Source: Candidatus Desulfatibia vada (GTDB lineage: Bacteria; Desulfobacterota; Desulfobacteria; Desulfobacterales; UBA11574). From it: DNA of 56,391 bases. Positions 53,660 through 55,786 of the stretch are shown piece after piece (position 1 is the first letter of the stretch; each line of letters opens with the position of its first letter). The DNA lies in the NCBI GenBank assembly GCA_014383215.1, contig JACNIG010000142.1, forward strand, positions 1-56,391, written 5' to 3'. Below the pieces are notes generated by a model. That model saw nothing but the letters and a program-made list of their open reading frames with translations, ran no database searches and was not told the DNA's origin. A program made the translations under genes and the position numbers.

Positions 53660-53811
53660 TACCTGCATAAACTGTTCTTTAAAAGATTGCAGATTTTAGG
53701 TCTTATATCTCAAGTTTCGCACCCCTGAAATGGCGCAAATCCACTTAAAGCATCGGTTAGAGCGTCTAAATAGTGCTGAAAGTCTTCATTTATTTTAAAA
53801 AGGCCCGCCAG

Positions 53812-54097
53812 TGTCAGCAAAAGGCCCAAAATCTCACATGTGGGCAGCGCTTATCTGAGGCATTGGCTATATCATTATGCCATGCGTCTGGTGGCACACG
53901 AAAGTCAATTTAAAACATTGTATCAACGTCGTAAAAAGAAATCCCCCGGCAAAGGCGCCGGGAAACGTGCTTTAATGGCTGTCAGTGACAAGGTCATACG
54001 AATTGTTTATCGCATATTAAAAGACAATGCCAAGTATGCGCCGCGAAAGGACCGAATTATTGCGCAATATTATTCATCTTTGAAAAAAGCGGCTTAA
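53812..54097 (+). pseudogene. IS110/IS1111-family transposase C-terminal remnant
   Basis: VSKRPKISHVGSAYLRHWLYHYAMRLVAHESQFKTLYQRRKKKSPGKGAGKRALMAVSDKVIRIVYRILKDNAKYAP resembles the IS110 C-terminal (Transposase_20) region. Confidence 0.8.
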
Positions 54098-54104
54098 CTA
54101 CCAG

Positions 54105-54300
54105 AGAGTAGATGAAAAGTTTGGGTGGTGAGGGGATACCTGGATATGGCTTCGGTCCCCGCCGAGGTGGGGAAAGCCAGTGCGTTAGTGCAGGTCCCTC
54201 ACCGCTCCAAAAAACCAGGATAAAGAACCGATGGACCGTCTTGGGCGGAAAACCCGAATCGGCCTTACGAGGATAGGTTTGAAGCATTAGCAAAGTGAGG
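54105..54300 (+). ncRNA. Candidate IS110/IS1111-associated guide (bridge/seek) RNA
   Basis: Follows the transposase 3' end; nested stems GGTGAGGG 54127-54134/CCCTCACC 54196-54203, TGGCTT 54147-54152/AAGCCA 54174-54179, TCCCC 54156-54160/GGGGA 54169-54173. Confidence 0.5.
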
Positions 54301-54416
54301 CCTCACCGCTCAATCTCTTTTTCTGCTCCAGGTGCAGCTTTGATCTTTGTTCGTTTTATCAAAGAACGAAACACTAGAGGTGTGCACTAGTAAAAAAATG
54401 CTTGCATTTTCTATAG

Positions 54417-54493
54417 AACACTAACGTGGGCATAACCTGCTGGGGTTGAGCGACAGCGAAAACCCAGTCAGCGTTCATGCCATGGTTAGTGTT
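54417..54493 (-). other. attC-like integron recombination site
   Basis: AACACTAAC-gtg-GGCATAAC-CTGCTGGGGTT...AACCCAGTCAGC-GTTCATGCC-atg-GTTAGTGTT: paired outer box, 3x3 unpaired spacer, inner box with one extrahelical base. Confidence 0.7.
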
Positions 54494-54498
54494 TTGCT

Positions 54499-55017
54499 TT
54501 AATAACCAATCCGCCTTTTCTTTGGCAGCGGGTCTGGTTTTAAAAGCTGTTTGATTGCTTTAATCAACTCTATAATCTGTTCATCATGGTCAGCCAGGTG
54601 CCGTTCGATTTGTACAATCCGTCTCGACAGTTCTTTGTTCTCCGCTATCATCCGGCGTAACTTCACAAACGCCCGCACAATGAAAACGCTAACTTCAATT
54701 GCCCTTGGGGAATTCAGGGCATTTGCAGCCATTATAGCACCATGTTCCGTAAATGCATAAGGTAAGGAACTGGAATATTTCAGTTTTGAAAGGTGGTCGC
54801 AATTTGCGACCACCTCGGACTTTTCTTCTGCTGAAAGTTGAAACATGAAATCATCTGGAAATCGGCCTTTATTCCGTTTAACCTGCTCATTCAGTCTTTT
54901 CGTCGGTACGCCGTAAAATTCTGCCAAATCAGCATCGACAATGACTTTTTCATCTCGAATGAGTAGTATACGCTGCTCTATTCTTCCAACAGGAACTATC
55001 GGTTTTTTCTCAGGCAT
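54499..55017 (-). CDS. ORF6N domain protein (cassette-borne)
   Basis: VGRIEQRILLIRDEKVIVDADLAEFYGVPTKRLNEQVKRNKGRFPDDFMFQL; SSLPYAFTEHGAIMAANAL; ATG at 55017 more plausible than the ORF-track start. Confidence 0.9.
   Translation of the reverse strand: MPEKKPIVPVGRIEQRILLIRDEKVIVDADLAEFYGVPTKRLNEQVKRNKGRFPDDFMFQLSAEEKSEVVANCDHLSKLKYSSSLPYAFTEHGAIMAANALNSPRAIEVSVFIVRAFVKLRRMIAENKELSRRIVQIERHLADHDEQIIELIKAIKQLLKPDPLPKKRRIGY
54791..54815. promoter_or_regulatory. Perfect intragenic palindrome AGGTGGTCGCAATTTGCGACCACCT
   Basis: 12+1+12 inverted repeat inside ORF6N; near copy at 55051-55067 upstream of the start. Confidence 0.6.
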
Positions 55018-55212
55018 GGATGTTGAGTCCTTTATTATCAGAGTGTAGCCGGTCGCAAATTGCGGCCACATTTTTAGAACACTAACGCAGAAGTGAGGGG
55101 GTGGGCGGCGCTCTGTGAAAAAGGTATTTAAAAGCTCAAATCGCAGCACTTGAAAAACGTTTTAAAAGCCGCGATTTTAGCCCGGTCCCTCTCCACTGAC
55201 ATGTTCTGTAAT

Positions 55213-55443
55213 TCAGTGATTGTTAATATGACTATTGAACTTCTTCGCCAATTCTAAAATAGAGATCTGAATTCCGGCTATTTTCTGGATAGCCCATGCT
55301 TGGAATATCTCATCTTTTCGGTCTTTATCTTCAGGGCGTAGCTCGATGTATTCCTGATAATGCGCATGAAATTCATAGATTAATTCTTCCGTCTTTTCCT
55401 CGACCATTTTTTCGCCTTCTTTAATTTTGTCTATGGCTGACAT
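55213..55443 (-). CDS. Hypothetical protein (76 aa), possible first integron cassette
   Basis: Coherent charged ORF between the cassette boundary and the intI remnant, antiparallel to intI. Confidence 0.55.
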   Translation of the reverse strand: MSAIDKIKEGEKMVEEKTEELIYEFHAHYQEYIELRPEDKDRKDEIFQAWAIQKIAGIQISILELAKKFNSHINNH

Positions 55444-55530
55444 ATACGGTTTTCCTTTTCATATGTGCAAAATTTTTATGGTACAGAACAGGTATTGGTA
55501 GGACGCCTGTATATCCAATAGGCGGGAATC

Positions 55531-55576
55531 CTCATAGTACCATATTGCGGGATTCCCGCTAACAACCTATTGCGGG
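55531..55576. repeat. Dyad containing GCGGGAATCC...GGATTCCCGC, flanked by CAATAGG...CCTATTG
   Basis: 10-bp perfect arms plus 7-bp outer arms, upstream of the intI remnant. Confidence 0.6.
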
Positions 55577-55786
55577 CCAAGTTTCAATAATTTTACTGAG
55601 AAATATTTAAATCGGCACAGAAATTTGTGCGCTTATGCACGGATTCTTGGGCATTTTAAGACTTCCGATACGGCCTGAAACCACCTATGTTTCATGAAAT
55701 CAAGAGGTTGGGAGTCTGGCACGCAAATTGCTCATTTTCAGGTCGGTAGATGTATGCCGTTTTCAGAAATTCTTTGGAAAAGTATA

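Follow-up and report, generated by a model that had tools for sequence, protein, structure and literature searches.

The DNA analysed here, called the window, comprises 56,391 nt and is the entire contig C342 of a MAG of Candidatus Desulfatibia vada (4.78 Mb in 471 contigs, 92% complete and 6.2% contaminated). Since the MAG is fragmented, integron arrays are split over contigs. A hairpin at 54417-54493 lies 1.9 kb before the right end of the contig. Between the hairpin and that end are found, on the minus strand, the gene of an ORF6N-domain protein (54499-55023; Pfam PF10543, E 7e-29), a 76-aa open reading frame (55213-55443) that is without a Pfam or NCBIfam match, and an attI-like segment, and, on the plus strand, the remnant of an integrase gene (intI) and the end of a RIT-like mobile element. 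A fragment of an IS110-family transposase lies on the other side of the hairpin.

On the plus strand of the window AACACTAAC (54417-54425) pairs with GTTAGTGTT (54485-54493) to form an outer stem. A 3x3 unpaired spacer follows (54426-54428/54482-54484), and then an inner stem in which GGCAT-AAC-CTG-CTGGG pairs with CCCAG-T-CAG-C-GTT-C-ATGCC. Folded with DNA parameters, this strand has a minimum free energy of −21.7 kcal/mol compared to a shuffle mean of −11.8 (z −4.04, 0/200 shuffles); the opposite strand has a z of −3.86. Both the coordinates and the 3x3 mismatch given in the original prediction were confirmed by the fold. It had also described an extrahelical base, which is present, but the count has to be corrected from one plus a bracketed T to three unpaired single bases (T54468, C54472 and C54476), all of which lie 4 nt apart on the 3′ arm. 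Looser palindrome scans gave many chance matches and were replaced by a stricter layout scan, which had no match in shuffled sequence. A strict search for the full architecture returned a single match in the 56 kb, this hairpin, and none in 60 Markov shuffles.

The hairpin lies at the end of a predicted gene cassette that is read from the minus strand, so the plus strand of the window corresponds to the bottom strand of the cassette. This cassette, cassette 2, carries the ORF6N gene and spans 54426-55086, from its left core GTTAGTGTT (55086) to its own attC, as delimited by an exact repeat and by a 9-nt match to its own left core. The attC of cassette 2 (54417-54493, minus strand) was assigned from the fold, the homologues and the covariation described below. 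Its boxes are R″ at 54493-54485, the unpaired central spacer (UCS) at 54484-54482 and 54428-54426, and R′ at 54425-54417, and the fold places the extrahelical bases of L″/L′ at 54476, 54472 and 54468. When we searched the whole genome for further copies, as had been proposed, CGTTAGTGTTC was found exactly twice, in R′ of the attC (54416-54426) and at the left end (55077-55087), and these copies mark both ends of a single cassette, the ORF6N cassette. Over 9 nt, the inverse core AACACTAAC is reverse-complementary to the left end of this same cassette. Cassette 1, which carries the 76-aa ORF, follows the same rule in that its R″ TACAGAAC (55210-55203) matches its own left core GTTCTGTA. Its attC of ~130 nt (55080-55210, minus strand), with R′ GTTAGTG at 55086-55080, was assigned by sequence and has a weak predicted fold (z −0.87). 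Among homologous sites, R″ matches an upstream left core across 9 nt or more in 10 of 30; when R″ boxes were swapped among sites, the mean was 1.0 and the maximum 5. Matches of this kind would be expected if the excised circle of a cassette is where its attC becomes complete.

Clear homologues of the 77-nt site are present on four other contigs of the genome (C368, C456, C79 and C180), and the site was matched in 19 of 115 related genomes of the family and order (20/116 counting its own genome), at 78-98% identity. These homologous sites adjoin different genes. What they have in common is the series R″-UCS-L″-loop-L′-GTT, and outside R″/R′ the sequence diverges abruptly. Cassettes beside other copies hold toxin-antitoxin genes (PIN/MazE-type, HicB, HigBA and BrnT-BrnA), of a kind that chromosomal integrons often carry. 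GTT or a matching left core is missing from several homologues in the sequence examined around each of them, and some copies may therefore be decayed. In an alignment of 24 sites, 84.7% of the pair cells are standard. Compensatory two-sided changes were counted in 42 cells versus 19.8 after shuffling (0/500), a control that is affected by the relatedness of the sites, and slid-structure controls were far lower. At the outer R positions about half of the aligned sequences form pairs, as expected, since the R′ of a site in an array is part of the cassette that comes next. Within the family, the attC site is present in 8 of 9 genomes that have an over-cut-off intI and in 6 of 15 that do not (Fisher p 0.033).

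Compared to the consensus GTTRRRY, which is customary for attC sites without being strictly required, the core GTTAGTG keeps GTT/AAC and is off at two of the other four positions. The original prediction had suggested that the core may be lineage-specific or degenerate, neither of which was borne out. The homologues likewise keep only GTT/AAC, and family cores vary freely after GTT (GTTAGTG, GTTATGA, GTTCTAC, GTTCGAT and others), which makes GTTAGTG one of many. As read from the homologous sequences, the lineage signature is the L-box/loop sequence and not the GTTAGTG core.

The first extrahelical base is a top-strand G (bottom-strand C) in 19 of the 25 predicted sites from the MAG itself and its attC-bearing relatives, and these 19 are mostly homologous copies and thus non-independent. 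At other intI-associated loci C is the commonest base at this position (27/61), with G second (17/61). A bottom-strand C at the L-box extrahelical base was reported to be rare in resistance cassettes, yet to be better excised by some integrases (PMC3053210). By having C for G at this base, the site resembles attC-dfrA1 and the engineered T-N6-C attC sites of that study; it differs in that C is found in most of a lineage-wide family here.

Among known sites, the VCR attC of Vibrio cholerae, which has the extrahelical bases G16, T20 and T24 (PMC2727003), is similar in its R and L boxes, in its unpaired central spacer, in an L box shared by the lineage and in three single extrahelical bases on the R″-L″ arm, spaced by 4 and 4 nt. 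In contrast to the VCR, the present site has a shorter loop and bottom-strand C, C and T instead of G, T and T, and the sequences are unrelated. The taxon-specific attC families of sedentary chromosomal integrons, for which there is also a Deltaproteobacteria model (PMC8352920), likewise combine an attC shared by the taxon with varied cassettes.

The intI remnant lies 1.2 kb from the hairpin, and the cassettes are divergent from it, which is the canonical integron layout. It consists of an N-terminal part (55694-56113, plus strand; TIGR02249 positions 5-97) and a C-terminal part (56113 to about 56311-56325, plus strand; positions 208-266) that stops at HTLRH codons. Between these pieces ~110 positions are missing and the reading frame is lost. 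We conclude from the sequence that intI on this contig is dead, by an internal deletion and then by insertion of the element at the HTLRH codons. No over-cut-off intI was found in this MAG. As the local intI is broken, the cassettes would be immovable by the local integrase and would need an integrase in trans.

The attI-like segment (55485-55541, minus strand) ends in the crossover core GTTCT, and a homologous stretch opens contig C456. The start of C456 is 89% identical to window 55541-55485 over 57 nt. The similarity stops within the GTTCT core, beyond which the first cassette of C456 differs from that of the window, and from this comparison the attI-like segment and the crossover were placed. 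C456 may represent another integron or come from a variant strain. Of the parts of a complete integron, the window thus has an attI-like segment beside intI with divergent cassettes, but not a functional intI.

Two further intI loci were observed. A second intI N-terminal fragment (TIGR02249 1-126, with one TAA) is found on contig C415 (7500-9800); a BrnT-BrnA-like pair and sequences resembling attC sites lie close by, and this is probably another decayed integron of the same MAG. In a related genome (G013, locus L021, 2281-2338) a truncated attC copy lies just 3′ of an intact intI, opposite the usual attI side.

All of this leads us to conclude, at a probability of about 0.95, that a small sedentary chromosomal integron is present here and that the hairpin is the attC belonging to its ORF6N cassette. 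The attC reading put forward in the original prediction is supported by the intI remnant, the arm of extrahelical bases, the homologues at cassette boundaries, the covariation and the match of R″ to the left core. The R″/R′ and L″/L′ boxes, AAC...GTT, the unpaired central spacer and the position at a cassette boundary are all present. Moreover, when the site is read in the cassette orientation dictated by intI, the extrahelical bases fall on the R″-L″ arm, as they do in described attC sites (PMC2727003). From established integron biology, the bottom strand (window plus strand), once single-stranded, would fold as described above, the extrahelical bases would guide an integrase in binding the R and L boxes, and cassettes would be excised or inserted by strand exchange in R′ (G^TT, with the G at 54425).

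We also considered that the site could be a decayed attC, its recombination lost since the core is not GTTRRRY. The two deviating positions and the dead local intI would fit this, but R″ and R′ form 9 bp without a mismatch, and the equally free cores of other cassettes also match their own left ends. We therefore regard such a loss as improbable. Copies of 78-98% identity on separate contigs and in several genomes could also be produced by a REP/MITE-like dispersed repeat, unrelated to integrons and spreading as one unit. This is very improbable, since the outer R boxes vary between copies and often match the cassette's own left end, the GTT crossover is conserved, intI and the attI-like segment adjoin, and non-homologous attC sites of the same architecture share the arrays (locus L108). 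That the stable hairpin directly past the ORF6N stop codon is an intrinsic transcription terminator or another RNA hairpin 3′ of the gene, its copies being simple terminators, is hardly credible, as a terminator scan passes over it, an Rfam scan of the window gave no match, the stem is interrupted with its bulges fixed on one arm, and many of the homologues lie at cassette junctions beside unrelated genes. Judged by these sequence features, the attC is genuine and the system is one already known; what is new is this lineage's example in a decayed chromosomal integron.

At 53840-54097 (plus strand; NF033542, E 9e-7), past the last attC, lies a C-terminal fragment of an IS110-family transposase, and the next cassette is truncated between this fragment and the attC of cassette 2. 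The truncated cassette and the ORF6N cassette have identical first 12 bases (GTTAGTGTTCTA; 54413-54426 and 55073-55087), and the former may be a duplicate of the latter. In window 53840-54400 the IS110-family fragment is followed by a structured stretch holding GCGTTAGTG, the attC core. The RNA downstream of the fragment folds somewhat above chance (z −2.9), and no second full copy was found in the genome or the relatives searched. A bridge-RNA link of the IS110-family fragment to the attC is conceivable. A short dispersed repeat around CTCAAGTTTCGCACCC was seen in window 53700-53800 and also on contigs C222, C288, C176, C463, C394, C76 and C40.

The element inserted in intI (56297-56391, plus strand) was recognized by a 28-nt terminal repeat, ATTATGCCGAGTTCCGGATTATGCCGAG, which starts at the HTLRH codons where the C-terminal piece of intI ends. 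The contig stops inside the element, 67 nt past the repeat. The same junction of intI and element is found at L087, L026, L094 and L101. At L087 and L026 the element is ~3.3 kb long and holds, between inverted repeats, three overlapping tyrosine recombinase genes in tandem, and at L026 and L101 intI resumes past the element. The first recombinase of the element has homologues on, among others, the known RIT plasmids of Cupriavidus necator H16 and Aromatoleum EbN1. These relatives thus share with described RIT elements (PMC3414803, PMC2864759) the size, the three tandem overlapping tyrosine recombinases, the inverted terminal repeats and the palindrome at one of the ends. The targets differ, being radC and transposase (tnpA) in those reports and HxLRH codons of tyrosine recombinases here.

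Element ends directly after HxLRH (or HxxRH/Y) codons were observed in the intI of five lineages and in other tyrosine recombinase genes (the window at 56297-56391 and loci L087, L026, L094, L101, L153, L154, L157, L158, L162 and L167). Further copies follow HSFRH, HSLRY, HSLRH and HNLRH codons, and the Aromatoleum copy follows HVIRH on both sides. The copies on C303 and C418 of the MAG itself and the Polaromonas RIT have no junction at HxxRH codons, and the terminal repeat is absent from the viral contigs searched. RIT target specificity is listed as "not formally tested" in a table from 2023 (PMC10214605); the HxLRH-codon target may already have been described in the RIT literature of 2013. 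The junctions suggest that the element prefers HxLRH catalytic-motif codons as its target. Whether this integron was silenced by a RIT-like element homing to HxLRH codons, under a rule common to RIT copies in the intI of several lineages and in other recombinases, we consider an even bet.

The present case shows that an attC can be recognized from structure in raw sequence even when its core departs from GTTRRRY. It adds a lineage-wide attC family that mostly has C rather than G at a base linked to strand choice, and the integrase remnant beside the attC is a concrete case of integron decay. The repeated RIT-like insertions at HxLRH codons provide a testable rule for mobile elements silencing recombinases and, if this rule is true, a RIT-like element would recurrently freeze integrons.
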